Shown here piece by piece: positions 15,969-33,756 of a stretch of DNA of 64,000 nucleotides (position 1 is the first letter of the stretch; every line of letters starts with the position of its first letter). The notes beneath the pieces are model-generated. The model ran no database searches and was not told where the DNA came from. It worked only from the letters and a program-made list of their open reading frames with translations. The stretch lies in assembly GCF_026342435.1 (NCBI RefSeq), contig NZ_JAPEMT010000001.1:919993-983992 (forward strand), in the 5' to 3' direction. The stretch is from Streptomyces sp. NBC_00237 (GTDB lineage: Bacteria; Actinomycetota; Actinomycetes; Streptomycetales; Streptomycetaceae). The position numbers and the translations under genes were made by a program.

Positions 15969-17168
15969 TCAGGTGAGCTGCGGGGTGCGCAGGCTCGCAC
16001 TGTCCGGCCGGTTCGACAGCAGCACGCCGACCGTGACGGCGACCGCCATGACGATGCCCGCCGCGAGCACTCCCCAGATGCCGAGGAAGGTGCAGGCGAG
16101 CACCAGCACGACCGTGACCGGCATCAGCGCCTTCTCGGCCGCGTCCCGCTTGAAGTGCCGGGCCTGGAGGAGCCAGCAGGTGAACAGGAAGAGCGCGGTG
16201 GGCACCGTCACCGCGGCGGCGGCCGTGACGGAGGAGATGTGCGCCTCGCCGGTGTCCTGTTCGACGGCGACCTCGATTCCCGCTCCGATCGCCGCCGCCG
16301 AGGCGAGGATGAAGAAGTGCCCGTAACCCCATTGGAGGGCCCGTTTCATGGAGGTCAGCCGCTCGTGGGCGGGTGAGGAGAAGTAGATCCACCAGGCGGC
16401 GAACACGATGAGCAGGCCGCCACCGGCGATGGCGAGCAGCTCACCCAGCTCGTCGCGCTCGTCCAGGCCCTTCTGCACGGCGATCGTGGCGGCGGTGATC
16501 GACTCGCCCAGCACGATGATGGTGAACAGGCTGTAGCGCTCGGCGATGTGGTGCGGGTGCCAGGAGGTGCGGAAGCCCTTCTCGGCGAGCGGCGGCACGC
16601 TCAGCTCGGCCAGCACCAGTACCGCGAAGAGGTACGGACGGGCCCCGTCCGGCAGGAAGATCACGGCGACCCAGCCGACTTGGCAGATCGCGAGACCGAG
16701 CGCGTACTTCAGCGCCATGGACCGTTCGGCACCGGTGTTGTGCCGGGCGACCCGCAGCCACTGGAAGGTCATCGCCAGCCGCATCACGACGTACCCGATG
16801 ATGCCGATGGTCCAGTCGCCGTTGTCGAAAGCACGCGGGATCCCGGCGGCGAACACCAGGATGCCCGCGATCTGCACCAGTACGGCGACCCGGTAGAACA
16901 CGTCGTCGTTGTCGTAGGCCGAGGCGAACCAGGTGAAGTTCATCCACGCCCACCAGATGGCGAAGAAGACGAGGAAGTAGCCGAGCACACCGGAGGCGAT
17001 ATGGGCCTCCGCGTCGGCGTGCACCAGGCGCGCACCGGCCTGGGCGACGGCGACCACGAAACACAGGTCGAAGAACAGCTCCAGCGCTGTCGCGGCGCGG
17101 TGTCCCTCCTCGGGACTGCGCGACGTCATCCGGCGCAGCAGGCCGGTGGGTGCGGTCGGATGGCTCAT
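15969..17168 (-). CDS. Low-temperature-requirement protein A (LtrA) family membrane protein
   Basis: The 399-residue protein has about 12 hydrophobic segments and the two family signatures: ALELFFDLCFVVAVAQAGARL near residue 27, and HHIAERYSLFTIIVLGES near residue 210. The family is named from Listeria; its molecular function is unknown. The ATG at 17168 gives a normal length, although its ribosome-binding sequence is weak. It is divergent from pflB across 321 bp, and the Rex-type site at 17295 lies within reach of both promoters, so co-regulation is possible. Confidence 0.85.
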   Translation of the reverse strand: MSHPTAPTGLLRRMTSRSPEEGHRAATALELFFDLCFVVAVAQAGARLVHADAEAHIASGVLGYFLVFFAIWWAWMNFTWFASAYDNDDVFYRVAVLVQIAGILVFAAGIPRAFDNGDWTIGIIGYVVMRLAMTFQWLRVARHNTGAERSMALKYALGLAICQVGWVAVIFLPDGARPYLFAVLVLAELSVPPLAEKGFRTSWHPHHIAERYSLFTIIVLGESITAATIAVQKGLDERDELGELLAIAGGGLLIVFAAWWIYFSSPAHERLTSMKRALQWGYGHFFILASAAAIGAGIEVAVEQDTGEAHISSVTAAAAVTVPTALFLFTCWLLQARHFKRDAAEKALMPVTVVLVLACTFLGIWGVLAAGIVMAVAVTVGVLLSNRPDSASLRTPQLT

Positions 17169-17294
17169 ACGTACCAAGAGACCAGAGGCGGCCGTCGTGC
17201 GCGCGCGGAAGCGGTCCGGCGGGGGGCGGCGGGAGCGGCCTGGGGCGGTCGGGGGAGTCGCTCGCGTACGTGCTCCGTACGCGCCGGACATTCT

Positions 17295-17312
17295 TTGTGA
17301 ATGTATTCACAA
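17295..17312. promoter_or_regulatory. Rex-type operator upstream of pflB
   Basis: TTGTGAATGTATTCACAA is a perfect 8-2-8 inverted repeat and fits the Streptomyces Rex consensus TTGTGAA-N4-TTCACAA at every defined base. It also satisfies the CRP/FNR form TGTGA-N6-TCACA. It lies 177 bp before the pflB ATG and 127 bp before the divergent LtrA start. Rex senses NADH/NAD+ and represses respiratory and fermentative genes. Confidence 0.75.
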
Positions 17313-17489
17313 GCGAACTTGGGACGTAAGTCCCGCCAAAAACCGCAGGTCAGAAGGCCATTACCGAAGCCCGCGCGATGGAAAAGGGGCCTTTCGGTCC
17401 TCGACTGAGGACCATTGCTTCCCGCGGGAGGCACCCGACAGGAGTGGAATGGAGGCACAGCGACGAAGCAGGAACGGAAGGTGCGGACG

Positions 17490-19760
17490 ATGACCACAGC
17501 CCCCGTGGACACGACGGCGACCGAGACGCAGGCGCAGGACGCCTGGGACGGTTTCGAGGACGGACTGTGGCGCGACGCGGTGGACGTCCGCGACTTCGTC
17601 CAGCGGAACTACACCCCGTACGAGGGCGACGCCGCCTTCCTCACCGGAGCCACCGAGCGCACCACCGCCGTGTGGCAGAAGCTCCTGGGCATGTTCCCCG
17701 AGGAGAACGCGAAGGGCGTCTACGACGTCGACGTGTCGACCCCGTCGCGCATCGACGCCTTCGCCCCCGGCTTCATCGACGCCGACAAGGACCTCATCGT
17801 CGGTCTCCAGACCGACGGCGCCCTCAAGCGCGCGATCATGCCCAACGGCGGCTGGCGCATGGTGGAGACGGCCCTCAACGCGTACGGCTACGAGGCCGAT
17901 CCCCAGGTCCGCGACGTCTACACGCACCTGCGCAAGACCCACAACGAGGGCGTCTTCGACGCCTACACCCCCGAGATCCGCGCCTGCCGCTCCTCCGGCA
18001 TCATCACGGGCCTGCCCGACGCGTACGGCCGGGGCCGCATCATCGGCGACTACCGTCGCGTCGCCCTGTACGGCGTCGACCGCCTCATCGAGGCGAAGGA
18101 GGCCGACAAGGCGCGCCTGGGCGAGCAGTGGGCCACCGAGCACGTCATCCGCGACCGCGAGGAGATCTCCGAGCAGATCAAGGCGCTCAAGGAACTCGCG
18201 TCGATGGCCGCTTCGTACGGCTACGACATCTCCGGCCCGGCGACCACCGGCCGCGAGGCCGTCCAGTGGCTGTACTTCGCGTACCTCGCCGCCGTGAAGG
18301 AGCAGAACGGCGCGGCCATGTCGATCGGCCGCATCGACAACTTCCTCGACATCTACCTCCAGCGCGACATCGAGAAGGGCCTCATCACCGAGGAGCAGGC
18401 CCAGGAGTTCATCGACGACTTCGTCATCAAGCTCCGCATCGTCCGCTTCCTGCGCACCCCGGAGTACAACGAGCTCTACTCCGGCGACCCGACCTGGGTG
18501 ACCTGGTCGATGGCGGGCATCGGCGAGGACGGCCGCCCGCTGGTCTCCCGCACCACCTTCCGCGCCCTCCGGACGCTCTACAACCTGGGTCCGGCCCCCG
18601 AGCCCAACCTGACCGTCTTCTGGTCGCAGCAGCTTCCCCAGGGCTTCAAGGAGTACGCCTCGCAGGTCGCCATCGACACCTCGGCGATCCAGTTCGAGTC
18701 CGACGAGCTGATGCGCCCGAAGTACGGCGACGACACCGCCATCGCGTGCTGCGTCTCGGCGATGGCCGTCGGCAAGCAGATGCAGTTCTTCGGCGCCCGC
18801 GTCAACGTCGCCAAGGCGCTGCTGTACGCCATCAACGGCGGCCGGGACGAGAAGTCCGGCAAGACCGTGGTGAAGGGCTTCGAGCCGGTCACCGGCGACC
18901 ACCTCGACTACGAGGACGTCGCCCCGCGCTACGACGCGATGCTGGACTGGCTGGCGAAGACGTACGTCCACGCGCTCAACGTCATTCACTACATGCACGA
19001 CAAGTACGCGTACGAGCGCATCGAGATGGCCCTGCACGACCAGGAGATCCTGCGCACCATGGCCTGCGGCATCGCCGGTCTCTCGGTCGCCGCCGACTCC
19101 CTCTCCGCCATCAAGCACGCCCGCGTGAAGGTGATCCGGGACGAGACGGGCCTCGCGGTCGACTACGAGATCGAGGGCGATTACCCGGCGTACGGCAACA
19201 ACGACGACCGCGCGGACCAGATCGCCCGGCGCATCGTCGAGGACTTCATGAAGAAGATCCGCAAGCACCCGACGTACCGCGACGCCCTGCACACACAGTC
19301 TGTGCTCACGATCACTTCAAACGTGGTCTACGGCAAGAAGACCGGCAACACCCCCGACGGCCGCCGCGCGGGCACCCCGTTCGCCCCCGGCGCCAACCCG
19401 ATGAACGGACGCGACGAGCACGGCTACATCGCCTCCGCCCTGTCGGTCGCGAAGCTGCCCTACGACGACGCCGAGGACGGCATCTCGCTGACGAACACCA
19501 TCACGCCGGACGCGCTCGGCCGCACGGCCGAGGAGCGCGTGGCGAACCTGGCGGGCGTCCTCGACGGCTTCATGGCGAGCAACGGCTTCCACATGAACGT
19601 CAACGTGCTCGACAAGGCAATGCTCGAAGACGCCATGGAGCACCCGGAGAACTACCCGCAGCTGACCATCCGGGTCTCCGGCTACGCGGTCAACTTCGTG
19701 CGGCTGACCCGCGAGCAGCAGCTCGACGTCATCAACCGCACCTTCCACGGCTCGCTCTAG
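17490..19760 (+). CDS. pflB: Pyruvate formate-lyase (formate C-acetyltransferase)
   Basis: The 756-residue glycyl-radical enzyme converts pyruvate and CoA to acetyl-CoA and formate. It is full length (E. coli PflB is 760) and keeps the catalytic pair C420-C421 ([16 protein letters not shown]) and the radical-bearing glycine, about G731, in the C-terminal [17 protein letters not shown] and [23 protein letters not shown] are also typical. The pair of cysteines separates it from glycerol dehydratase and choline TMA-lyase relatives. AAGG lies about 9 bases before ATG 17490. The matching activase follows. The radical enzyme is destroyed by oxygen, so its presence implies use under micro-oxic or anoxic conditions. 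Confidence 0.93.
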
Positions 19761-19808
19761 GGCCCCGCCCGCCAGCGCCCCGCCCGCATCCTCGCGGGCC
19801 CCCGGATC

Positions 19809-19861
19809 CGTACGGCGCCGGGACCGATCCCCCTGACCACACCCGGTCCCGGCGCCGTACG
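19809..19861 (+). terminator. Perfect 18-bp inverted repeat between pflB and pflA
   Basis: CGTACGGCGCCGGGACCG (19809-19826) and its exact complement (19844-19861) enclose a 17-base loop, followed by an A-run. It ends 36 bp before pflA. It may act as a partial terminator or RNA-stability element, giving far more lyase than activase. Confidence 0.65.
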
Positions 19862-19897
19862 AAAACGTTTCTCCGCCCCTCCCAGGAGGTTCCTGCC

Positions 19898-20725
19898 ATG
19901 ACCGCCGTACTGCTCGGAACGGATATCCCCGTACGGGCCGCCGTCCCCGCCGCGCCCGAGGGCGCGACCCCGGCCGGTGCCGCCACCCAGCGGCCCATCA
20001 GCGGCTCGGTGCACTCCTGGGACCTGTCCACCGGCGTCGACGGCCCCGGCACCCGCTTCGTCACGTTCCTCTCCGGCTGCCCGCTGACCTGCCTGTACTG
20101 CCACAACCCCGACACCATGAAGATGCGCAACGGGAAGCGGTACGCGGCGGACGACATCGTCGCGGAGGCGGCCAAGTACACGACGTTCATCCGGGCGTCC
20201 GGCGGCGGTGCCACGATCAGCGGCGGCGAACCCCTCCTCCAGCCGGTCTTCGCGGGCGAGCTCTTCCACCGCTTCAAGCACGAACTCGGCCTGCACACCG
20301 CCCTGGACACCTCCGGCTACCTGGGCGCGCGCGCCACCGACGCGATGCTGCGCGACGTCGATCTCGTCCTCCTGGACATCAAGTCCTGGGACCCGGCCAC
20401 GTACACGAAGGTCACCGGCCGCGAACTGGCCCCCACTCTCGACTTCGCCCGCCGCCTGGCCGCCCTCGACAAGCAGGTGCACGTACGTTTCGTCCTCGTG
20501 CCGGGCCTGACGGGCGACCCGGCCAACGTCGAGGGCGTCGCCGCCTTCGCCGCCTCCCTGGGCGTGGTCTCGCGGGTCGACGTCCTTCCCTTCCACAAGC
20601 TGGGCGAGGCCAAGTGGGAGGCCCTCGGCAAGACCTTCACCCTGCACGACACCCCGTCCCCCGGTCCGGCCGAAGTGGCGGCGGCCCGCGAGATCTTCCA
20701 GGGGCACGGCCTGTACGCCGTTTGA
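19898..20725 (+). CDS. pflA: Pyruvate formate-lyase activating enzyme (radical SAM)
   Basis: The 275-residue radical-SAM protein has the canonical C61-x3-C65-x2-C68 motif (SGCPLTCLYCHNPDTM) for its [4Fe-4S] cluster, and ASGGGATISGGEPLLQP for SAM binding. The C-terminal DVLPFHKLGEAKWEALG is typical of PflA. It installs the glycyl radical on PflB. The N-terminus is about 30 residues longer than in E. coli and Ala/Pro-rich. AGGAGG lies ideally before the ATG. The electron donor is flavodoxin or ferredoxin in other bacteria; the ferredoxin-like gene at 24265 is a candidate by proximity only. Confidence 0.93.
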   Translation: MTAVLLGTDIPVRAAVPAAPEGATPAGAATQRPISGSVHSWDLSTGVDGPGTRFVTFLSGCPLTCLYCHNPDTMKMRNGKRYAADDIVAEAAKYTTFIRASGGGATISGGEPLLQPVFAGELFHRFKHELGLHTALDTSGYLGARATDAMLRDVDLVLLDIKSWDPATYTKVTGRELAPTLDFARRLAALDKQVHVRFVLVPGLTGDPANVEGVAAFAASLGVVSRVDVLPFHKLGEAKWEALGKTFTLHDTPSPGPAEVAAAREIFQGHGLYAV

Positions 20726-20735
20726 GTGCGCCAAG

Positions 20736-20758
20736 GGGTGAAAAATACCCTTTCGCCC
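20736..20758. promoter_or_regulatory. Imperfect inverted repeat ahead of the respiratory operon
   Basis: GGGTGAAA and TTTCGCCC (7 of 8 positions pair) flank AATACCC, starting 10 bp after the pflA stop and ending 12 bp before the next start. The local A/T content is unusually high. It could be an operator or a short terminator. Confidence 0.35.
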
Positions 20759-20770
20759 TAATTTGATGGA

Positions 20771-21904
20771 GTGACCGAGCCCTCACCACTGACACCGGAC
20801 CCGACACCGCCCCCCAGCCCCGGGGGCGTCCCCCCTGCGGCCCCCGGCGGAGCCGCACCGCTCGGTTCCCCCCGTCCCACCCTCTCGGTGACCCGACGCG
20901 CCACCCTCGTCGCCACAGCGGTGTCAGCGCTCCTCGTCCTCGCCATCTACTTCGGCAGCAGAATGCTGAGGGACTTCGACTCCGCCCTCCTCCCCTACGC
21001 CGTCGCCACGATCTTCCTCGCCTTCGGCGTCGCCTACCGCTACACCGTCTGGGTCTCCGCCCCCGGCGCCCGCCGCCTCTTCACCAAGGGCTGGGGCAGC
21101 CTCTTCTCCGCCGAGAACTTCCGCAAGGCCCCCACCGCGCTCCCCAGGATGATCGCGACCTACCTCGGCTTCCAGAAGTTCCTCGGCGCCCGCAGCCACG
21201 CCCGCTGGGCCGCTCACCAGCTCATCTTCTGGGGCTGCATCCTCGCCGCCGCGATCACCTTCCCCCTCACCTGGGGCTGGTTCACCTTCACGTCCTCGAC
21301 CGGCTCGGGCCCCGGCTACGAGATGCGCGTCTGGGGCTTCAAGGTCCTCGGCTACGACTCCGCCAGCCTCATCGGCTGGCTGATGTTCCACGGCCTCGAC
21401 GTCGCCGCCGTACTGGTCATCCCCGGAGCCTCGTACTTCCTGTGGCGGCGGATGAAGGACCGAGGCGCGATGACAGGACAGCGCTTCGCCTACGACCTGG
21501 TCCCGCTCATCGCGCTCATCGTCATCTCGGTCACCGGCCTGCTCCTGACCTTCTCCTCGATCTTCCTGCACGGCGGCGGCTACGAGTTCCTGGCGCTCCT
21601 GCACATGGTCTCGGTGGTCTTCACCCTCATCTACGTCCCCTTCGGGAAGTTCTTCCACATCGTGCAGCGGCCCGCGGCCGTCGGTATGCAGCTCTTCAAG
21701 TACACGGCGAGGCAGCAGGACGAGGTCTTCCACTGCCGCCGCTGCGACACCCCGATCGACACCGCGCCGTACGTCGAGAACCTCGAAGCCACCATGCGCG
21801 ACCTGAAGCTCGACTTCGCCGAATGGGCCGAGTACTGCCCCCGCTGCAAGCGCGAGCTGCGCGGCAACGCCTACCTCTCGCACGTCAAGAAGGGCTTCAA
21901 GTGA
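20771..21904 (+). CDS. Cytochrome-b-like (NarI/DsrM-type) membrane subunit with C-terminal zinc ribbon
   Basis: The 377-residue protein has about six transmembrane helices, several carrying histidines suited to heme b: AAHQLIFWG, LMFHGLDVA, LLHMVSV and GKFFHIVQ. A cytoplasmic C-terminus then holds two CxxC pairs (FHCRRCDTPID and YCPRCKREL), which look like a rubredoxin-like or zinc knuckle. This arrangement suits a quinol-oxidising anchor for the oxidoreductase encoded next. The GTG at 20771 has a poor ribosome-binding site, and the first 38 residues are Pro/Ala-rich, so a later start is possible. Its stop overlaps the next gene as GTGA. Confidence 0.65.
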   Translation: MTEPSPLTPDPTPPPSPGGVPPAAPGGAAPLGSPRPTLSVTRRATLVATAVSALLVLAIYFGSRMLRDFDSALLPYAVATIFLAFGVAYRYTVWVSAPGARRLFTKGWGSLFSAENFRKAPTALPRMIATYLGFQKFLGARSHARWAAHQLIFWGCILAAAITFPLTWGWFTFTSSTGSGPGYEMRVWGFKVLGYDSASLIGWLMFHGLDVAAVLVIPGASYFLWRRMKDRGAMTGQRFAYDLVPLIALIVISVTGLLLTFSSIFLHGGGYEFLALLHMVSVVFTLIYVPFGKFFHIVQRPAAVGMQLFKYTARQQDEVFHCRRCDTPIDTAPYVENLEATMRDLKLDFAEWAEYCPRCKRELRGNAYLSHVKKGFK

Positions 21905-24258
21905 CCGCGCAAGACGTCCCGTTGGGGCCGACCGTCCGGAGCGCGAAGCCCGCCCCGCCGGGCGGACGCATCCCGCTCGACCCCGCCATCTCCCCGCCCG
22001 GCACCCGGGGCTTCCGCGACGCGGGCGGCATCCCCGCCGACCAGTGGCACGCCGACCAGAACGGCGAGACCCTCGTCCCCACCCACTGCTGCTTCTGCGG
22101 CGTGCAGTGCGGCATGTATCTGCGCGTCGACAAGGGCGGCAAGGTCTTCGGCGTCGAGCCGCGCAACCACGACATCAACCGGATGCGGCTGTGCCCCAAG
22201 GGCATCAACGCCTACCAGCAGGTCAACCACCCCGACCGCCTGACCGCCCCCCTGATGCGCCGCTCCCGCGACGAGGAGTTCGAGGAGGTCTCCTGGGAGG
22301 AGGCCCTCGACTTCACCGTCTCCGAGATCCGGCGCATCCAACAGGCGTACGGCAACGACGCGTTCGGCCTGCTCGGCGGCGCGAGCCTCTTCTCCGAGAA
22401 GACGTATCTGGTCGGCAAGTTCGCCCGGGTCGCCCTCAGGACGAAGCACGTCGACTACAACGGCCGCCTGTGCATGGTCTCCGCCGCCGGGGCCAACAAG
22501 CTCGCCTTCGGCATCGACCGCGCGGGCAACCCCTTCTCCGACATCCTCCTCACCGACTGCCTGCTCATCGCGGGCTCCAACGTCGGCGAGTGCTTCCCGG
22601 TGATGACCCAGTACCTGTGGGGTGCGCGCGACCGGGGTGCGGTGCTGATCGTGGTCGACCCGCGCGAGACGGCCGTCGCCCGCACCGCCGACATCCACGT
22701 CGCCCTCAAACCCGGCACTGACTCCGCGTTCTTCAACGCCGTCCTGCACGTCGTCGTGCGCGAAGAGCTGGTCGACGAGGCGTATCTCGCGGCGTACGCC
22801 ACCGGCTGGGACGAGGTGAAGGCCAAGGCCGCCGAGTACCCGCCCGAGCGCTCCGCCGGGATCTGCGGGGTCCCCGCCGCCCAGATCGAACAGGTCGCCC
22901 GGGTCTTCGCGGGCGCGGGCAAGGCGATGGCCTGGCACGCGCGCGGCATCGAGCACCACTCGCAGGGTGTCGAGAACTGCCTCTCCGTCATCAACCTCTG
23001 CGTCGCCACCGGCAACATCGGCAAGCCAGGGGCCGGTTACGGCACGATCACCGGCCAGGGCAACGGACAGGGCGGGCGCGAGCACGGCCAGAAGTCCGAC
23101 ATGCTGCCCGGCGGCCGCTCCATCATGAACGCCGAGCACCGCCGCCAGATCTGCGAGATCTGGGGCATCGAGGAGTCCGAACTCCCGGCGGCGGGAACCT
23201 CGATGATGGAGATGGTCTGGCAGATGCGGCGCGGCGAGATCCGCGGCCTGATCGGCATCTGCAACAACCCCTTCGTCTCCCTGCCCAACTACCGGGTGAC
23301 GAAGGAGGGTTACGACGCGACGGAGTTCCACGCCCAGTTCGACTTCTTCCTCTCCGAGACGGCCGCCAACGCGCACGTCGTCTTCCCCGTCACCACCTGG
23401 GCCGAGGACGAGGGCGTGATGGCCAACGCCGAGGCCCGCGTCGTCAAGCACAACAAGGCCCAGGAACCCCCGGCGGGCGTCCGCACCGACACCTGGGTGA
23501 TGTGCCAGCTCGCCCAACGCCTCGGCGTGGGCGACAAGTTCGCCTTCGCCGGCTCCCGCGAGGTCTTCGACGAACTCCGCGTCGCCTCCTCCGGCACCGT
23601 CAACGACTACTACGGCATCACCTACGAGCGCCTGGAGGAGACCGGCGGCATCGCCTGGCCCTGCCCGGACACCGAGCACCCCGGCACCCCCCGCCTCTTC
23701 GAGGACGGGAGGACCTGGCACCCCGACGGCAAGATCCACCTCCAGGCCGTCGAGTGGCACCAGCCGATGGACCCGTACGACGACGAGTTCCCGATGTCCC
23801 TCACCACGGGCCGTACCGTCGCGCACTTCCTCTCCGGCAACCAGACCCGCCGCGTGGGCGCGCTCGTCGAGCAGACTCCGCGCCCCTGGGTGGAGGTGCA
23901 CCCCTCGCACGGCTTCCAGAACGGCGATCCGGTACGGGTCGTCACCCGCCGGGGCAGTGCCGTCTTCCCGGCCCTGGTCACCGAGGCGATCCGCCCCGAC
24001 ACCTTCTTCGTCCCGTACCACTGGCCCGCCCCGACGGCCGCGAACATCCTCACCATCGACGCCCTCGACCCCCGCTCCAAGATCCCGGAGTACAAGGTCT
24101 GCGCCTGCCGCATCGAGCGCGCCGAGTCGATCGACGAGGTCCCGGCCCCACCCGTCGCCCCCGGCCACGTGGCGTACCCGGAGACGCAGGTCTCCCGCAC
24201 CGACACCCTGCCGCCCACCGCCCCACAGGGCAGGGCGACCGCAGAAGAGAGGCGCTGA
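21901..24258 (+). CDS. NasA-like molybdopterin oxidoreductase (nitrate reductase or formate dehydrogenase)
   Basis: The 785-residue Mo-bisMGD enzyme carries an N-terminal [4Fe-4S] motif C63-x2-C66-x3-C70...C98 and the Moco-binding domains. The likely Mo ligand is C191 in NGRLCMVSAAGANK, which resembles RLCM of assimilatory nitrate reductases. Formate dehydrogenases instead have Sec or Cys in RV(U/C)H. GYGTITGQGNGQGG and the C-terminal dinucleotide-binding domain (TGRTVAHFLSGNQTRR) are present. There is no Tat signal, so it is cytoplasmic. A NarK-type transporter in the same operon favours nitrate reduction; the pfl genes next door keep formate oxidation open. Confidence 0.8.
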   Translation: MTAQDVPLGPTVRSAKPAPPGGRIPLDPAISPPGTRGFRDAGGIPADQWHADQNGETLVPTHCCFCGVQCGMYLRVDKGGKVFGVEPRNHDINRMRLCPKGINAYQQVNHPDRLTAPLMRRSRDEEFEEVSWEEALDFTVSEIRRIQQAYGNDAFGLLGGASLFSEKTYLVGKFARVALRTKHVDYNGRLCMVSAAGANKLAFGIDRAGNPFSDILLTDCLLIAGSNVGECFPVMTQYLWGARDRGAVLIVVDPRETAVARTADIHVALKPGTDSAFFNAVLHVVVREELVDEAYLAAYATGWDEVKAKAAEYPPERSAGICGVPAAQIEQVARVFAGAGKAMAWHARGIEHHSQGVENCLSVINLCVATGNIGKPGAGYGTITGQGNGQGGREHGQKSDMLPGGRSIMNAEHRRQICEIWGIEESELPAAGTSMMEMVWQMRRGEIRGLIGICNNPFVSLPNYRVTKEGYDATEFHAQFDFFLSETAANAHVVFPVTTWAEDEGVMANAEARVVKHNKAQEPPAGVRTDTWVMCQLAQRLGVGDKFAFAGSREVFDELRVASSGTVNDYYGITYERLEETGGIAWPCPDTEHPGTPRLFEDGRTWHPDGKIHLQAVEWHQPMDPYDDEFPMSLTTGRTVAHFLSGNQTRRVGALVEQTPRPWVEVHPSHGFQNGDPVRVVTRRGSAVFPALVTEAIRPDTFFVPYHWPAPTAANILTIDALDPRSKIPEYKVCACRIERAESIDEVPAPPVAPGHVAYPETQVSRTDTLPPTAPQGRATAEERR

Positions 24259-24264
24259 CCAGCC

Positions 24265-24864
24265 ATGATGGGTAAAACGATCTTCATCGACCCGGGTCGC
24301 TGCATCGGCTGCCAGGCATGTGTCTCGGCCTGCCGCGAATGCGACTCGCACCGGGGCAAGTCGATGATCCACCTCGACTACACCGAGCCCGGTCAATCCG
24401 TCGCCTCCCTTCCCACCGTCTGCATGCACTGCGAGGACCCGGTCGCACCCTGCGCCGAGGTCTGTCCCGCCGAGGCGATCCTGATCACCGCCGACGGGGT
24501 GGTGCAGCAGGCCGACACCACCCGCTGCATCGGCTGCGGGAACTGCGTGAACGCCTGCCCCTTCGGCGTCCCCAAGATCGATCTGGAAGCCAAGCTCCAG
24601 ATGAAGTGCAACCTCTGTTACGACCGCACCGCCTACGGGCTCGCGCCCATGTGCGCCACGGTCTGCCCGACCGGGGCCCTCTTCTACGGAACGCTCGAAG
24701 AGCTCCAGGCCGAGCGACCCGGCGTCCAGGTCGCCGACTCCTTCGCGTTCGGCGACGTGATGGTCTCCACCGGGGTCGCCATGGTCGTCCCCGCCGACAA
24801 GGTCCAGTGGCCGGTGCCCGGCGGGCTCCCGGTCGTCGAGGTGAACGGAGTCGACGTCCGATGA
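24265..24864 (+). CDS. Four-cluster ferredoxin-like electron-transfer subunit (NrfC/HybA type)
   Basis: The 199-residue protein carries 17 cysteines arranged for four [4Fe-4S] clusters: CIGCQACVSAC at residues 13-23, CMHCEDPVAPCAEVCP, CIGCGNCVNACP, and CNLCYDR...CATVCP. This is the usual electron-wire subunit of Mo-bisMGD oxidoreductases, here between the catalytic subunit and the membrane or Rieske partner. It starts at one of two adjacent ATGs (24265 or 24268), 6 bp after the preceding stop. Its own stop overlaps the Rieske start as ATGA, which suggests equimolar synthesis. No signal peptide, so cytoplasmic. Confidence 0.88.
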   Translation: MMGKTIFIDPGRCIGCQACVSACRECDSHRGKSMIHLDYTEPGQSVASLPTVCMHCEDPVAPCAEVCPAEAILITADGVVQQADTTRCIGCGNCVNACPFGVPKIDLEAKLQMKCNLCYDRTAYGLAPMCATVCPTGALFYGTLEELQAERPGVQVADSFAFGDVMVSTGVAMVVPADKVQWPVPGGLPVVEVNGVDVR

Positions 24865-25547
24865 GCACAGTCCAGCCACCGTCCCCCGGGGACACCCGGG
24901 TCCCCGAGGACGCCGACGCCGCACAGGCCGCACTCCACGACCGGATCAGCGCCGACTCCCTCACCTCCCGCCGCGACTATCTCCGGATCGTCGCCACCGT
25001 CTCCGGCGGCCTCGCCGTCGGCGGCCTGGCGGTCGCCGGGGGAGTACTGCACCGGCACGGCGACCCCGAGGGCGACGGCGCCCCGGAGCCGAAGAGGATC
25101 GCCGAGGGCCTGCCGCCCGGCGAGTCGATCGCCTTCCGCTACCCCGGCGACGAGGACCGGGCCGTCGCCGTCCGCCTCGACGACGGCTCCCTCGTCGGCT
25201 ACTCCGCCGTCTGTACGCACCTGGCCTGCGCGGTCCTGTGGCGCAAGGAACGCGGCTCCGAGGGCGAGCTGTACTGCCCCTGCCACGAGGGCGTCTTCGA
25301 CGCCCGCACCGGCGAGGTCACCGCAGGGCCGCCGCCCCGCGGCCTGCCCAAGGTGGTGGTCGTCGAGGAGGTCGACGGCAGCATCTGGGCGATCGGCACC
25401 ACCCGCTCCGGCGAGAGCGTCGAGGACGGCCTGTGCCGCCAGATCATCGACGAACGCCCCGAGTTCGCGGCCCGGATCGGCTGCCCGGGTGCGGCCCCGC
25501 GCCGCAACCCGCAGGCCGAACCCCGCCAGCCGAGCAGGCAGACATGA
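24861..25547 (+). CDS. Rieske [2Fe-2S] protein with Tat-type signal anchor
   Basis: The 228-residue protein begins with about 35 hydrophilic residues, then a twin-arginine motif SRRDYLR and a Gly/Ala-rich hydrophobic segment (residues 44-63), so the Rieske domain should be outside the membrane. Cluster ligands are C118 and H120 (CTHLAC) and C139 and H142 (CPCHEGVF), with C123 and C141 as the stabilising disulfide. A basic Pro-rich tail with two more cysteines ends the protein. It may take electrons from quinol like the Rieske subunit of bc complexes. Its pairing with a cytoplasmic molybdoenzyme is unusual. Confidence 0.87.
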   Translation: MSTVQPPSPGDTRVPEDADAAQAALHDRISADSLTSRRDYLRIVATVSGGLAVGGLAVAGGVLHRHGDPEGDGAPEPKRIAEGLPPGESIAFRYPGDEDRAVAVRLDDGSLVGYSAVCTHLACAVLWRKERGSEGELYCPCHEGVFDARTGEVTAGPPPRGLPKVVVVEEVDGSIWAIGTTRSGESVEDGLCRQIIDERPEFAARIGCPGAAPRRNPQAEPRQPSRQT

Positions 25548-25948
25548 GCGAACCGACCCCGACCCCGCCCCCGAACGCGGCCCCCGCCCCGGGCGTCCCG
25601 CCGCGCCCCGTCTACCACCCCGGCAGCGCCGACCCCCGGCTGAACCGCCCGGTTCACGAGCGCTACCCCCAGATCCGCGCGACCAGCGGTTACGGCGACC
25701 CCCGTATTCGCCACACCGGCCCCGGCCCCGGCGCGGGAACCGAGCAGGAGCCCGAACGCGCCGCCACGTTCAACGCCCGCCTCACGCTCGCCATGACGGT
25801 CGTCATCGGCCAGCTCTGGGCGCTGTTCATCACCGTCAACGAGTGGATGAAGGGCGACACCACCACCGCCTGGTGGGGTGCGGGCTTCCTCTGCCTCTCC
25901 TTCGTGGTCGTCCTCCTCCTCTGGCTCATCGACCCCAAGGACCGGTGA
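25544..25948 (+). CDS. Small two-helix membrane protein of the oxidoreductase operon
   Basis: The 134-residue protein has an 80-residue Pro-rich hydrophilic N-terminus (with DPRLNRPVHERYPQIRATSGYGDPRIRH), then two hydrophobic helices (LTLAMTVVIGQLWALFITV and AGFLCLSFVVVLLLWLI) joined by a short Lys/Asp loop. The start overlaps the Rieske stop as ATGA, and the stop lies 5 bp before the NarK-like gene. I do not recognise a named family. Position suggests an assembly or anchor subunit of the surrounding complex. Confidence 0.7.
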   Translation: MSEPTPTPPPNAAPAPGVPPRPVYHPGSADPRLNRPVHERYPQIRATSGYGDPRIRHTGPGPGAGTEQEPERAATFNARLTLAMTVVIGQLWALFITVNEWMKGDTTTAWWGAGFLCLSFVVVLLLWLIDPKDR

Positions 25949-25953
25949 CTCCC

Positions 25954-27375
25954 ATGGCCACACCCACCGGCGTCCCCGCCCCGGGCGGCGACACCTACAA
26001 GCCGGGCACCACGATCACCGACTGGCGGCCCGAGGACGCGTCCTTCTGGCAGTCCACCGGACGCAAGGTCGCCAACCGCAACCTGTGGATCTCGGTCCCC
26101 GCCCTGATGCTGGGCTTCGTCGTCTGGCAGGTCTGGTCGGTGACCGTCGTCAAGCTCGGCGACGTCGGCTTCGGCTTCTCCAAGGCGCAGCTGTTCTGGC
26201 TGACCGCCATCCCCGGCATCACCGGCGGCACCTTCCGGATCCTCTACACCTTCATCGGGCCGATCTTCGGAGAGCGGAAGTTCACCGCGTTCTCCACGAT
26301 CATCCTGATCGCCCCGCTGCTCTGGCTCGGCTTCGCTCTCCAGGACACCTCCACCCCGTACTGGGAGATGGCCCTGATCGCCGCCGTCTGCGGACTCGGC
26401 GGCGCGAACTTCGCCTCCTCCATGGCGAACATCGGCTTCTTCTTCCCCAAGCGGGAGAAGGGCAACGCCAACGGCATGAACGGCGGCCTCGGAAACCTCG
26501 GCGTCTCCGTCGTCCAGCTGATCGCCCCGCTCGTCGTCACCGCCGCCGTCCTGGGCCCCCCGGCCGGTGCGGCGCTGACCAGCAAGAAGACCGGTGACGA
26601 CGTCTGGCTCCAGAACGGCGCGTTCCTCTGGGTTCCGCTGCTGGTGATCATGGCGCTGCTGGCCTGGTTCCTGATGAACGACCTCAAGGTCGCCGCCGCC
26701 CCGTTCAGCGAGCAGAAGGTCATCTTCAAGCGGAAGCACAACTGGCTGATGACCTGGCTGTACGTCGGAACCTTCGGCTCCTTCATCGGCTTCGCCGCCG
26801 CCCTGCCGAACCTGATCAACACCACGTTCACACCGATCAACTCGGCCTACTCGGCGACCACGTACGCCTGGATCGGCCCGTTCATCGGGGCCCTCGCCCG
26901 CTGGGGCGGCGGCTGGCTCTCCGACAAGATGGGCGGTGCCCGCGTCACCATGCTGTCGTTCGTCGGCATGGGCGTGGCGCTGATCGTCGTGATCAACGCC
27001 CTGCCCGGCGGCGGCGACAACGGCAACTTCTGGGTCTTCTACGCGGGCTTCCTCGTCGCGTTCTTCTTCTGTGGCCTGGGCAACGGCTCGACCTTCCGGC
27101 AGATCCCGGTGATCTTCCGCAACCAGCACCTGATGGAGGTGGCGGGCAAGGGCGAGGCGGCGCAGGCGAAGGCGCTCAAGCAGTCGGAGATGGAGTCGGG
27201 CGCGGTCACCGGCTTCAGCTCGGCCATCGCGGCCTACGGCTTCTTCTTCATCCCGGCGATGTTCGCGAACTTCCCCGTCGTGAACTCGCTCTGGGTCTTC
27301 GTGGGCTTCTACGTGACCTGCCTGGTGGTCTGCTGGTGGTTCTACGCCCGCAAGAACGCCGAAGCCCCCAGCTGA
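25954..27375 (+). CDS. narK: NarK-type nitrate/nitrite transporter (MFS)
   Basis: The 473-residue protein has 12 predicted helices and the nitrate-porter signatures NGGLGNLGVSVVQL (helix 5) and CGLGNGSTFRQIPVIF (helix 11). Arginines sit at the expected places (PGITGGTFRILYTF). It imports nitrate or exchanges nitrate for nitrite. It closes the operon begun by the b-type subunit and is the strongest hint that the molybdoenzyme handles nitrate. An in-frame GTG at 25945 is an alternative start with closer AAGGA spacing. Followed by a 15-bp tandem repeat. Confidence 0.88.
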   Translation: MATPTGVPAPGGDTYKPGTTITDWRPEDASFWQSTGRKVANRNLWISVPALMLGFVVWQVWSVTVVKLGDVGFGFSKAQLFWLTAIPGITGGTFRILYTFIGPIFGERKFTAFSTIILIAPLLWLGFALQDTSTPYWEMALIAAVCGLGGANFASSMANIGFFFPKREKGNANGMNGGLGNLGVSVVQLIAPLVVTAAVLGPPAGAALTSKKTGDDVWLQNGAFLWVPLLVIMALLAWFLMNDLKVAAAPFSEQKVIFKRKHNWLMTWLYVGTFGSFIGFAAALPNLINTTFTPINSAYSATTYAWIGPFIGALARWGGGWLSDKMGGARVTMLSFVGMGVALIVVINALPGGGDNGNFWVFYAGFLVAFFFCGLGNGSTFRQIPVIFRNQHLMEVAGKGEAAQAKALKQSEMESGAVTGFSSAIAAYGFFFIPAMFANFPVVNSLWVFVGFYVTCLVVCWWFYARKNAEAPS

Positions 27376-27486
27376 CCGGCCTTGAGCTGACCGGCCTCCA
27401 CTCGACCGGCCACCACCTGACCGGCCACCACCTGACCGGCCACCACCTGACCGGCCGCCACCTGACCGGCCTCCACCCGACCGGGG
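27373..27486. repeat. 15-bp minisatellite downstream of narK
   Basis: About seven tandem copies of CTGACCGGCCACCAC, with small changes in the outer copies, begin at the narK stop codon. CTGACCGGCC can form overlapping weak hairpins. No spacers, so not a CRISPR array. Confidence 0.8.
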
Positions 27487-27749: not shown

Positions 27750-28223
27750 CTACGGGGTGCTGTGCCCCGACCCGCGCTGCGCCACGAGCGCGTCCCGGAT
27801 CTCCTTGAGGACCTCGATCTCGGTGATCTCCATGACCTCGGAGGTCGCCTCCTTCGCCTTCTCGTGGGCCGCCCTCCTGGCGAGGTACTTCGCCATCGGC
27901 AGCACCATCAGGAAGTACACGACCGCGGCGGTGATCAGGAAGCTCAGAACCGCGCTGAGCACCGAGCCCCACATGATCTGGATGCCGTCCACCGAGCCGT
28001 CCGCCAGCTTGGCGCAGGTCCCCTTCAGGCAGGAGCTGTAGCTCTCCAGGTCCTTCGTGCCGAAGGCGCCGACGATCGGGTTGATCACGCCCTTCACGAC
28101 CGAGTTCACGATGTTGGTGAACGCGGCGCCGATGACGACGGCGACCGCCAGATCGATCACGTTGCCGCGCATCAGGAAGGCTTTGAAGCCTTCCAGCAGG
28201 CTGGTCTTCTCGTCGTTGCTCAC
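27750..28223 (-). CDS. mscL: Large-conductance mechanosensitive channel
   Basis: The 157-residue protein has the MscL pattern: N-terminal amphipathic segment LLEGFKAFLMRGNVIDLAVAVVIGAAF leading into TM1 (gate region), a periplasmic loop, TM2 (SVLSFLITAAVVYFLMVLPM), and a charged cytoplasmic helix (RRAAHEKAKEATSEVMEITEIEVLKEIRDALVAQ). It opens under membrane tension to release solutes in osmotic downshock. The start is the GTG at 28223 (GTGAGCAACGAC). The loop is somewhat longer than in E. coli and contains two cysteines. Confidence 0.93.
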   Translation of the reverse strand: MSNDEKTSLLEGFKAFLMRGNVIDLAVAVVIGAAFTNIVNSVVKGVINPIVGAFGTKDLESYSSCLKGTCAKLADGSVDGIQIMWGSVLSAVLSFLITAAVVYFLMVLPMAKYLARRAAHEKAKEATSEVMEITEIEVLKEIRDALVAQRGSGHSTP

Positions 28224-28361
28224 CAGGGAGCCTCTTTTCGCATGTGCAGGGGGCAGTGCAAACTTCTCCGCAACTCTCGGCAGCACCGGTCGCCGCTGTC
28301 CAATCCGGCAACTCGTATCGGTGACCCCACTGCTCGTCAGCGCGAATAGGCGATCTCGCCG

Positions 28362-31967: not shown

Positions 31968-33539
31968 CTACAGGGGCTTTTGCTCGGTCGCCCTTGCTTT
32001 CGCTGTCACCGGCCTCAGTGACTTCGCCGTCACCGGCCGTGGTGCCGGCTCCCCGCCCGTACCGAGCCAGTCCGCCAGCTTGCCGCCCTGGCCGACCGCC
32101 CGCAGCCGCCGCTCGGCGGCGTCCCGTACCGGATCGGTTGCCACCACCAGGAGCTCGTCCCCGCGCCGCAGCACCGTCGTCGGCAGCGGTACGAAGCTCG
32201 TCCCGTCCCGTACGACGAGGGTGACGGCGGCGCCCGGCGGCAGCCGCAGCTCCGCGACCTCGACGCCGTGCATCCGGGACTCCTCCGGAATGGCCACCGA
32301 CAGAAGGTGCCCGCGCAGCCTCTCCAGGGGGGCGGATTCGATGCCCAGGTCGGCGGTCTCCCCGCCGTCCCCCAGGTTCAGCCGCCGTGCCAGCCAGGGG
32401 AGGGTCGGTCCTTGCACCAGCGTGTAGACCACGACCAGCACGAAGACGATGTTGAAGATCTGGTCGCTGCCCTCGACGCCGCCCACCATCGGAATGGTGG
32501 CCAGCACGATGGGCACCGCCCCGCGCAGCCCCGCCCAGGACAGGAGCACCTGTTCGCGCATGGACGTACCGAAGGGCAGCAGGCTGATCAGTACGGACGT
32601 GGGCCTGGCCACCATCGTCAGGACCAGGCCGACGATGATCGCGGGCCAGATGTCGTCGAGCAGTTCGTGCGGGGTGACCAGCAGGCCGAGCAGGACGAAC
32701 ATGCCGATCTGCGCGATCCAGCCGAGCCCGTCGGCGAAGCCTCGGGTGGCAGGCCAGTGCGGGAGCTTGGAATTACCCATGATCATCGCGGCCAGGTAGA
32801 CCGCCAGGAAGCCGGAGCCGTGCGCCATGGCGCCCGCGGCGTACGCGGTGACCGCGATGGCCATCACTGCGATCGGGTACAGGCCGGAGGCGGGCAGCGC
32901 CACGCTGCGCAGGCCCAGGGAGCCGAGCCAGCCGACCGCGAGCCCGATGGCCGCGCCGATCGCCAGCTCCAGGGCTATCTCGCCCACCAGGGCGTACCAG
33001 GAGTCCACAGGGCCGGCCGTGGAGAACGCGACGACCAGGATGACCACCGGGGCGTCGTTGAAGCCGGACTCGGCCTCCAGGACGCCCGTCAGGCGTGCGG
33101 GAAGCGGCACCTTGCGCAGCACCGAGAAGACGGCCGCCGCGTCCGTCGAGGAGACCACCGCGCCGATGATCAGCGACTGCCGCCAGTCCAGGCCCACCAG
33201 GTAGTGCGCACCTGCCGCCGTGATCCCCACGCTCACCGCGACGCCGAGGGTCGACATGACGACCGCCGAGGGCAACGCGGGTTTGACCTCCTTCCACTTC
33301 GTGCCCAGGCCGCCCTCGGCCAGGATCACGACCAGCGCGGCATAGCCGATCACCTGGGTCAGCTCGGCGTTGTCGAACGCGACGTTGCCGATGCCGTCCT
33401 GGCCCAGCGCGATGCCGATGCCGAGGTAGATCAGCAGGCTGGGGAGCCCACTGCGCGAGGACAGCCGGACCGCCGCCACAGCGACGAGAAGTACGACCGC
33501 GCAGATGAGCAGGAGTTCATTGAGCTGGTGGACAGTCAG
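31968..33539 (-). CDS. CPA1-type K+(Na+)/H+ antiporter with C-terminal TrkA_C domain
   Basis: The protein has about 12 membrane helices of the NhaP class: SGLPSLLIYLGIGIALGQDGIG, AVVSSTDAAAVFSVL, ESGFNDAPVVILVV with the ion-binding Asp, and SWAGLRGAVPIVLATIPM. A roughly 85-residue cytoplasmic TrkA_C/RCK-like domain follows (GVEVAELRLPPGAAVTLVVRDG). Starting at GTG 33479 would remove half of helix 1. In frame upstream, a CTG at 33539 has AAAGGA 7 bases ahead and gives TVHQLNELLLICAVVLLVAVAAV, a proper first helix. CTG is therefore my preferred start (523 residues). It extrudes cations in exchange for protons. Confidence 0.85.
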   Translation of the reverse strand: MTVHQLNELLLICAVVLLVAVAAVRLSSRSGLPSLLIYLGIGIALGQDGIGNVAFDNAELTQVIGYAALVVILAEGGLGTKWKEVKPALPSAVVMSTLGVAVSVGITAAGAHYLVGLDWRQSLIIGAVVSSTDAAAVFSVLRKVPLPARLTGVLEAESGFNDAPVVILVVAFSTAGPVDSWYALVGEIALELAIGAAIGLAVGWLGSLGLRSVALPASGLYPIAVMAIAVTAYAAGAMAHGSGFLAVYLAAMIMGNSKLPHWPATRGFADGLGWIAQIGMFVLLGLLVTPHELLDDIWPAIIVGLVLTMVARPTSVLISLLPFGTSMREQVLLSWAGLRGAVPIVLATIPMVGGVEGSDQIFNIVFVLVVVYTLVQGPTLPWLARRLNLGDGGETADLGIESAPLERLRGHLLSVAIPEESRMHGVEVAELRLPPGAAVTLVVRDGTSFVPLPTTVLRRGDELLVVATDPVRDAAERRLRAVGQGGKLADWLGTGGEPAPRPVTAKSLRPVTAKARATEQKPL

Positions 33540-33756
33540 GGGCCGGTCCTTTCCTGGGGCCAGCCGGATCGTTCCTCCAGCGGCAGGGCATACGGGCGAG
33601 GTAGTTTCATTACCTTACCTAATCTTTGATGCTTCCTTAACGCGTTTCCCCAACTGCCTCACTGAGGGCTTCAGGAGACCGAGTCAGGAGCGGCACGGGG
33701 CTGCGCCTATGGTGGCTCCAGCACTCCAGGACCACCCTGCCCCTCTAAGGACAGCG

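Follow-up and report, generated by a model that had tools for sequence, protein, structure and literature searches.

Streptomyces are regarded as strictly aerobic, and the question raised by one locus of Streptomyces sp. NBC_00237 is what a pyruvate formate-lyase (PFL) with its activase is doing there, directly before the genes of a molybdenum enzyme, and whether the two halves belong together. The locus lies in a stretch of 64,000 nucleotides of contig NZ_JAPEMT010000001.1 (hereafter the window), and a sequence-only reading had described it as a fermentation and anaerobic electron-disposal module. The answer proposed here, which we hold to be fairly probable from the sequence comparisons, is that two functional modules stand at one site: a candidate Rex-controlled fermentation encoded by pflBA, and a putative membrane nitrate reductase encoded by a six-gene operon (the Mo operon) with a membrane b-type subunit, a Mo-bisMGD catalytic subunit, an Fe-S subunit, a Rieske protein, a small membrane protein and NarK. 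Such genes are part of what has been called the "anaerobic paradox", namely that Streptomyces are unable to grow without oxygen and yet carry many anaerobic genes (PMC5069765).

The PFL had been described as Rex-fronted, and a perfect operator does lie 5' of pflB. In fact, the palindrome TTGTGAATGTATTCACAA matches with no mismatch the pattern TTGTGAANNNNTTCACAA, for which a shuffled window gives an expected 0.16 matches at up to three mismatches. This pattern is the Rex motif established in S. avermitilis, where the best of the 36 sites counted carry one mismatch (PMC5355995). The genome of the window strain contains ten sites at up to two mismatches, against one for a reversed-pattern control, and two of them are perfect, one before pflB and the other before adhE, the product of the latter being AdhE according to NF010378 (1360 bits, cut-off 951). 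Weaker sites precede rex and nuoA (both above their family cut-offs), a partial cydA (family match below the cut-off), a pyridine-nucleotide-oxidoreductase-like gene and an AtpI-like frame; three of these sites, at rex, at cydA and at the AtpI-like frame, are letter-identical to S. avermitilis Rex footprints, and a fourth site carries the letters of the wblE footprint (PMC5355995). The rex gene itself is present (NF003992, 332.4 bits, cut-off 226), and the genome has on sequence both parts of a Rex regulon, an 18-bp operator upstream of a gene and the repressor gene.

The same arrangement recurs in other strains. Among 56 other Streptomyces genomes, picked for carrying adhE, a linked PFL or the Mo operon, 22 perfect operators were found in 15 genomes, and none with the control pattern; 17 of the 22 front pflB (nine, at 181-201 bp) or adhE (eight, at 107-192 bp), and no perfect operator occurs in the 13 scanned genomes having neither gene. 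Perfect sites before both genes were found in seven of the 57 genomes scanned, the window strain included. The five perfect sites that do not front either gene lie at G024:C68:27109, G006:C9:158182, G146:C12:188862, G117:C1:4724269 and G074:C1:1131044. Since the operator is present at up to one mismatch in 14 of 21 Streptomyces PFL loci, and in none of 19 Mo-operon loci without a pfl gene even when three mismatches are allowed, the candidate Rex signal belongs to PFL, and elsewhere in the genome to adhE, and not to the Mo operon. The named-genome loci (the best 80 of 391 relatives, all Streptomyces and biased towards the relatives of the window) give, at up to one mismatch, an operator in 17 of the 34 with full PflB upstream, in one of the nine with PflA whose PflB is missing, split or lies beyond the contig, in none of the 32 without PFL and in none of the five on contigs too short to tell.

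Both proteins of the PFL half are intact, as previously read. PflB scores 1156.7 bits against TIGR01255 (cut-off 994.2) and PflA 277.3 bits against TIGR02493 (cut-off 231.75), and the translations contain the Cys-Cys pair IACCVSAM and the radical-glycine stretch RVSGYAVNF in PflB and CxxxCxxC in PflA, the signature motifs of the two proteins. Equivalog match, Cys-Cys pair, radical glycine and PflA partner are all found, as in a PFL with its activase. A 1115-aa frame (17378-20725), considered as a PflB-PflA fusion, was rejected because PflB lies in a different frame, leaving two genes. A tree of 65 PflB sequences (matches longer than 600 aa; L162 and L204 left out) contains three clades: A, which holds the window, with 14 of 21 members linked to the Mo operon and an operator in 17; B, with 34 of 35 linked, an operator in 14 and one subclade without it; and C, with none of nine linked and no operator. 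Clades A and B both stand beside the same Mo operon, PFL having joined it separately or been replaced. The linked-PFL subclade without a Rex site includes L055, L059, L060 and L062, which have none at up to three mismatches. A leader element resembling GGAGTG-N-AATGGA was observed 40-50 nt 5' of pflB (window positions 17440-17493) and is kept in most loci of clades A and B; a conserved leader peptide in the same place was rejected, the 14-codon frame of the window overlapping the pflB start with its stop and relatives often keeping the ATG and not the frame. PflA is retained and PflB was not found in L142 (from S. candidus, which like S. spiroverticillatus is closely related to the window strain), L197, L073 and L079, which suggests decay of the PFL unit.

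The link to AdhE was followed in 150 Streptomyces genomes with the N-terminal 439 aa of AdhE as query, accepting matches at least 67% identical in frames of at least 880 aa. PFL was found in 58 of the genomes, or 55 once the fragment-only G034, G042 and G087 are dropped, and AdhE in 39. All but one of these 39 also encode a near full-length PFL, the exception being G034 with its PFL fragments. PFL thus occurs in 38 of 39 genomes with AdhE and in 17 of 111 without it (p=4e-21, Fisher, ignoring phylogeny). The operator is shared by pflB and adhE in one species group and the two genes co-occur strongly; the first half of the locus is probably a Rex-controlled formate/ethanol fermentation, the fermentation itself being suggested by the reactions that PFL and AdhE are known to catalyse.

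The second half stands apart as an operon conserved among actinobacteria, whose b subunit has matches in 29 of 396 genomes across the phylum, six of them marginal (E 5e-5 to 8e-4), three in Streptomyces and 20 in other genomes spread, according to the genome labels, over nine further actinobacterial families. In 19 loci taken from 18 of these 20, some on short contigs, the gene order b, Mo, Fe-S, Rieske is retained in 18 (the contig of L098 stops inside the Mo gene), the Mo subunit is 49-66% identical and PflB is absent from all 19 within the stretch available. In the Streptomyces sample the Mo enzyme was found in the window genome, in 32 others at 84-90% identity and as one partial match at 72% (n=34). 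The gene previously called a b-type subunit is intact and in place, but it has no Pfam match and its likeness to QmoC/TmcC is weak, with 35.5 bits against a curated QmoC cut-off of 300. Across 21 b subunits, four Cys and the residues His 149, 278 and 296 never vary and His 207 hardly does, which suggests haem ligation; a structure model from an alignment of 32 sequences of close relatives reached a pLDDT of 46.7 and a pTM of 0.26. In the Mo loci where a Rieske protein was called (n=46), all 46 proteins have both cluster motifs, 43 a [ST]RR motif and 45 a looser RR motif. No Tat signal was found on the catalytic subunit: the Mo protein of the window lacks a hydrophobic N-terminal segment, and an RR-type match falls within the first 70 aa in seven of 54 members. 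Because the Mo and Fe-S subunits of the window show no recognised signal and NarK is present, the Mo site is presumably cytoplasmic; alternatively, the Tat-Rieske protein could carry the Mo subunits outside, as in arsenite oxidase AioAB. A piece of the Mo gene lies on the opposite strand at the gene start in L067 (9192-9341), L169 and L206, either a small inversion or an assembly fault.

As to the substrate, formate oxidation, nitrate reduction or both had been offered; nitrate reduction is now favoured and formate oxidation less so, because of the Cys-Met active site, the place of the enzyme beside NasA and its nitrate/nitrite neighbours. In 53 of 54 members a Met follows the Cys that ligates Mo, as it does in NasA and E. 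coli NapA, while FdhF has His there; the window enzyme is Cys-Met and lacks the FdhF-type Cys/Sec-His pair. In a tree with few outgroups the Mo subunit groups with the NasA of its own genome (support 0.991), apart from E. coli FdhF and NapA, and it is placed within or beside NasA. It is 46% identical to the NasC-like paralogue of the same genome, with the same Cys-Met site, and reaches 567.1 bits against the formate dehydrogenase model TIGR01591 (cut-off 666.25). Formate dehydrogenase is the less favoured reading of the enzyme on active site and tree. The best NarG match in the window genome (E 1.6e-7) is below the TIGR01580 cut-off, and no respiratory NarGHI was recognised there. In the distant loci the neighbours include a TM_HPP-type gene in six and, in three each, an NIR_SIR nitrite/sulphite reductase and MoeA, with one member per cluster tested against Pfam and the others assigned by clustering; a plant HPP protein is a candidate nitrite transporter with measured nitrite affinity (PMC4137279). 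Neighbours were also counted over 122 loci, overlapping, with some genomes entered twice and some contigs short: NirBD is present in 17, the siroheme chelatase CbiX in 14 and DcuAB in five of 48 Streptomyces loci with both PFL and the Mo operon, each of them in none of 58 Mo-only loci and none of nine with PflA and no full PflB, and NirBD and CbiX in two of seven PFL-only loci. The anaerobic C4-dicarboxylate transporter DcuA/DcuB stands between NarK and PflB in L056, L057, L061, L179 and L208, which hints at fumarate/succinate traffic. On its sequence, a quinol-linked nitrate reductase is the likeliest identity of the Mo operon.

The two halves share a single, modular position in the Streptomyces chromosome. 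Between peptidase S58/LtrA and MscL, some loci have only the Mo operon, others only NarK-PFL (four loci, L084-L087) and others the two together, and PFL adjoins the Mo operon in 13 of the 34 Streptomyces genomes having it. The sequence-only reading knew of no description of the combination; no title on a Mo/Rieske/b operon appears among the open-literature matches listed, but the pair itself is no singularity, recurring in at least 34 other named Streptomyces loci. Two distributions count for a shared role of the halves: PFL tracks NarG (29 of 55 PFL-positive genomes against 20 of 95, p=1e-4), from which it lies within 5-53 kb in eight of the 29 genomes having both, contig breaks hiding some, and NarG is scarcer where the Mo operon is present (four of 34 genomes with the operon against 45 of 116 without, p=0.003).

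On the two-module reading, Rex would repress pflBA while NADH is low and would leave the operator once oxygen is exhausted and NADH rises. PFL and the separately encoded, Rex-fronted AdhE would then convert pyruvate to formate, acetyl-CoA and ethanol, with NAD+ regenerated. The downstream operon would form a membrane-bound nitrate reductase, in which menaquinol would be oxidised at the b-type subunit, together with an outside Rieske protein, and electrons would flow by way of the Fe-S subunit to a NasC-like Mo subunit in the cytoplasm, while NarK would bring nitrate in and take nitrite out. A gap of 45 bp separates the end of pflA from the start of the b-subunit gene, so that both blocks may be co-transcribed, and because the Mo operon of the window strain starts so close, transcription from the Rex promoter probably also runs on into it, which would make the whole a package for surviving hypoxia.

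Several observations weigh against this reading. The operator is absent from seven of 21 and 17 of 34 PFL loci, including a whole subclade, and from ten of ten further PflB stretches, clade C too; in the 56-genome scan no perfect site precedes pflB in 33 of 42 PFL genomes, some of which have sites with one mismatch, or adhE in 30 of 38 AdhE genomes. AdhE is absent from 17 of the 55 PFL-positive genomes. The Mo subunit reaches 761.5 bits against the NasC model NF047855 (cut-off 1100), below which the NasC-like paralogue also falls (819.3), its best PDB sequence matches are formate dehydrogenases, and the separation of the Mo-operon clade from NasA is supported at only 0.653. Some distant actinobacteria place the operon near an assimilatory-type nitrite reductase, and in these it may be assimilatory. 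Moreover, the search for co-occurrence of the two blocks that had been suggested did not favour their functional link: the Mo operon occurs in 15 of 55 PFL-positive and 19 of 95 PFL-negative Streptomyces genomes (p=0.32), no more than by chance across the genus. Many Mo operons occur without PFL, and then also without a Rex site, so that the tie may be mere co-location. Finally, the Fisher tests on genome co-occurrence are uncorrected for phylogeny. The description as a fermentation and electron-disposal module stands as a reading, with a weakened link between its parts.

The missing association across the genus, together with the occurrence of the Mo operon or of PFL by itself at this site, is what would be expected of a hotspot that gathers unrelated genes with no functional tie between the blocks, an explanation that we consider rather improbable; against it, the variable genes at the site include many for anaerobic or nitrogen-oxide metabolism (NarK, NirBD, CbiX, DcuAB, PFL), and PflB from two distinct clades is found next to the Mo operon. 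It is rather unlikely that the operon is a quinol-driven nitrate reductase for nitrogen assimilation, its adjacency to PFL being incidental. The grouping with assimilatory NasA and the nitrite-reductase and HPP-type neighbours of the distant loci would agree with such a role, as would the finding that among the 20 distant genomes only G399 has another match above 40% identity outside the operon family, but the window genome already has a NasC-like paralogue near a NirB-like gene, the operon and NarG are inversely distributed, and in Streptomyces the operon keeps company with PFL, NirBD and DcuAB. A more ambitious form of the two-module reading is distinctly doubtful: an undescribed energy-conserving nitrate reductase with a built-in Q-cycle, coupled through Rex to the PFL/AdhE fermentation so that hyphae can ferment. 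Here the electrons of menaquinol would be split, one going outward to the enzyme's own Rieske protein and the other crossing the membrane through b haems to the cytoplasmic NasC-type Mo centre.

The palindrome contains TGTGA-N6-TCACA, the pattern with which S. aureus Rex sites were also sought (PMC2883068), and could be bound by a Crp/Fnr-type protein instead of Rex. We consider such binding very unlikely, as the perfect sites preserve every one of the 14 positions fixed in the longer Rex consensus, with variation between loci in the inner four, and the rex and cydA sites of the window genome are letter for letter those of the S. avermitilis footprints. Least probable of all is a quinone-linked formate dehydrogenase oxidising the formate of the neighbouring PFL, which the adjacency in 13 of 34 genomes, the PDB matches and the lack of a TIGR01591 hit among the other Mo enzymes tested would favour, but which is opposed by the Cys-Met site with its NasA-type GQGNGQGGREHG motif, the grouping with NasA and not FdhF, the absence of PFL from all 19 loci outside Streptomyces, the nitrate/nitrite neighbours and the presence elsewhere in the window genome of an FdhF/YdeP-family protein with Cys-His. 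As regards the formate itself, four other Mo-enzyme matches of the genome were tested (NasC-like, FdhF/YdeP-family, BisC-like and one weak) and none passes TIGR01591, L138/L139 standing outside this test and no search having been aimed at formate dehydrogenase; formate is therefore probably exported. The YdeP relative (956 bits, subfamily cut-off 582) might conceivably oxidise it instead.

Table 1. Features of the locus and of its edges, in window coordinates.
Feature	Position	Strand	Remarks
Candidate Rex-type operator, 18 bp	17295-17312	.	TTGTGAATGTATTCACAA, 0 mismatches; also a formal TGTGA-N6-TCACA match
PflB, pyruvate formate-lyase, 756 aa	17490-19760	+	Above TIGR01255 cut-off; Cys-Cys, radical Gly
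PflA, radical-SAM PFL activase, 275 aa	19898-20725	+	Above TIGR02493 cut-off; CxxxCxxC
Membrane b-type subunit, distantly QmoC-like	20771-21904	+	Conserved His; C-terminal CxxC...CPxC domain
Mo-bisMGD catalytic subunit, NasC-related	21901-24258	+	Active-site motif GRLCMVSAAG; no N-terminal hydrophobic signal seen
Fe-S subunit, DmsB/FdhB-type, 199 aa	24265-24864	+	Family matches
Rieske protein	24861-25547	+	Twin-arginine motif (SRRDYL), N-terminal hydrophobic segment
Small membrane protein, 134 aa	25544-25948	+	No family match
NarK/NarU-type nitrate/nitrite transporter, 473 aa	25954-27375	+	TIGR00886 311.6 bits (cut-off 311.7); NF011608 424.7 (cut-off 836)
LtrA, divergent, left edge of variable site	15969-17291	-	True start probably near 17168
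MscL, right edge of variable site	27750-28286	-	Start uncertain

The gene positions (Table 1) are those of the sequence-only reading, and every frame from PflB to NarK is intact. The 4-bp overlaps reported for the second block hold at three of its five junctions (b/Mo, Fe-S/Rieske and Rieske/small protein), the Mo and Fe-S genes being separated by 6 bp and the small protein and narK by 5 bp; NarK is of the NarK/NarU type, although it falls 0.1 bit short of the TIGR00886 cut-off. Between 16000 and 29000, no sigma-70-type promoters and two simple terminators were found, and shuffled sequence gives no fewer. A 15-bp tandem repeat (GCCACCACCTGACCG) in eight copies covers the end of narK and the sequence directly downstream (27364-27484), and an ordinary, large penicillin-amidase family protein (1052 aa) is encoded at 33505-36663.

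Rex control of pflBA and adhE is already known in S. aureus (PMC2883068; PMC5355995). What appears new, as far as the open literature goes in the matches listed, is the Rex-fronted pflB/adhE pair in a Streptomyces group and the modular site, together with what looks, on its gene content, like an actinobacterial NasC-type nitrate reductase operon with a Rieske protein and a QmoC-like membrane subunit; among the open-licence matches listed no title concerns the function of PFL in Streptomyces or such an operon, which does not prove absence. PFL and AdhE together in 38 of the 150 sampled Streptomyces make up a concrete predicted fermentative route that can be tested by deletion. The neighbouring operon, whose enzyme none of the family models used names above its cut-off, would contribute a nitrate reductase that brings Rieske and b-type partners with it, present in nine further actinobacterial families. 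The matter bears on how soil Streptomyces survive without oxygen, and gene deletions could test it.

Comparison with known systems places each half. The Rex regulon of S. aureus resembles the first, with an operator TTGTGAA-N4-TTCACAA, pflB and adhE as targets and a repressor released by NADH (PMC2883068; PMC5355995); S. aureus employs pflBA, adhE and nitrate genes in anaerobic metabolism, whereas the nitrate enzyme of the window is of another kind than NarGHI and lacks a Rex site of its own, and the Streptomyces Rex targets published, in the part of the source available, are cyd, nuo, atp, rex-hem, wblE and aveR, and not pflB or adhE (PMC5355995). The OsdR dormancy region of S. coelicolor with Nar2 likewise has a PFL near a nitrate reductase and transporter: SCO0206 is annotated as a putative PFL, numbered near OsdR and Nar2 in the S. 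lividans/S. coelicolor annotation (PMC6302529; PMC5069765), but there the reductase is NarGHJI, the control is by OsdR and PflA is annotated as a pseudogene fragment (PMC6302529). Assimilatory NasC/NasA shares with the catalytic subunit the Cys-Met site and, in the paralogue of the same genome, 46% identity, but the window enzyme is below the NasC cut-off and has Fe-S, Rieske and membrane b-type partners of its own. In the haloarchaeal nar operon (Rieske narB, cytochrome b narC, and narGH) a nitrate reductase, a Rieske protein and cytochrome b also stand together, and a Q-cycle has been proposed (PMC2483277; PMC4683180); its NarG belongs to another Mo lineage and has its active site outside, whereas in the window the Mo subunit resembles NasC and shows no recognised signal, and the b subunit bears a distant likeness to QmoC. 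Finally, nitrate reduction by the S. coelicolor NarGHI (Nar1) needs a Rieske/cytochrome b complex, the bcc-aa3 supercomplex (PMC7931247), whereas in the window the Rieske and b-type genes belong to the reductase operon itself.

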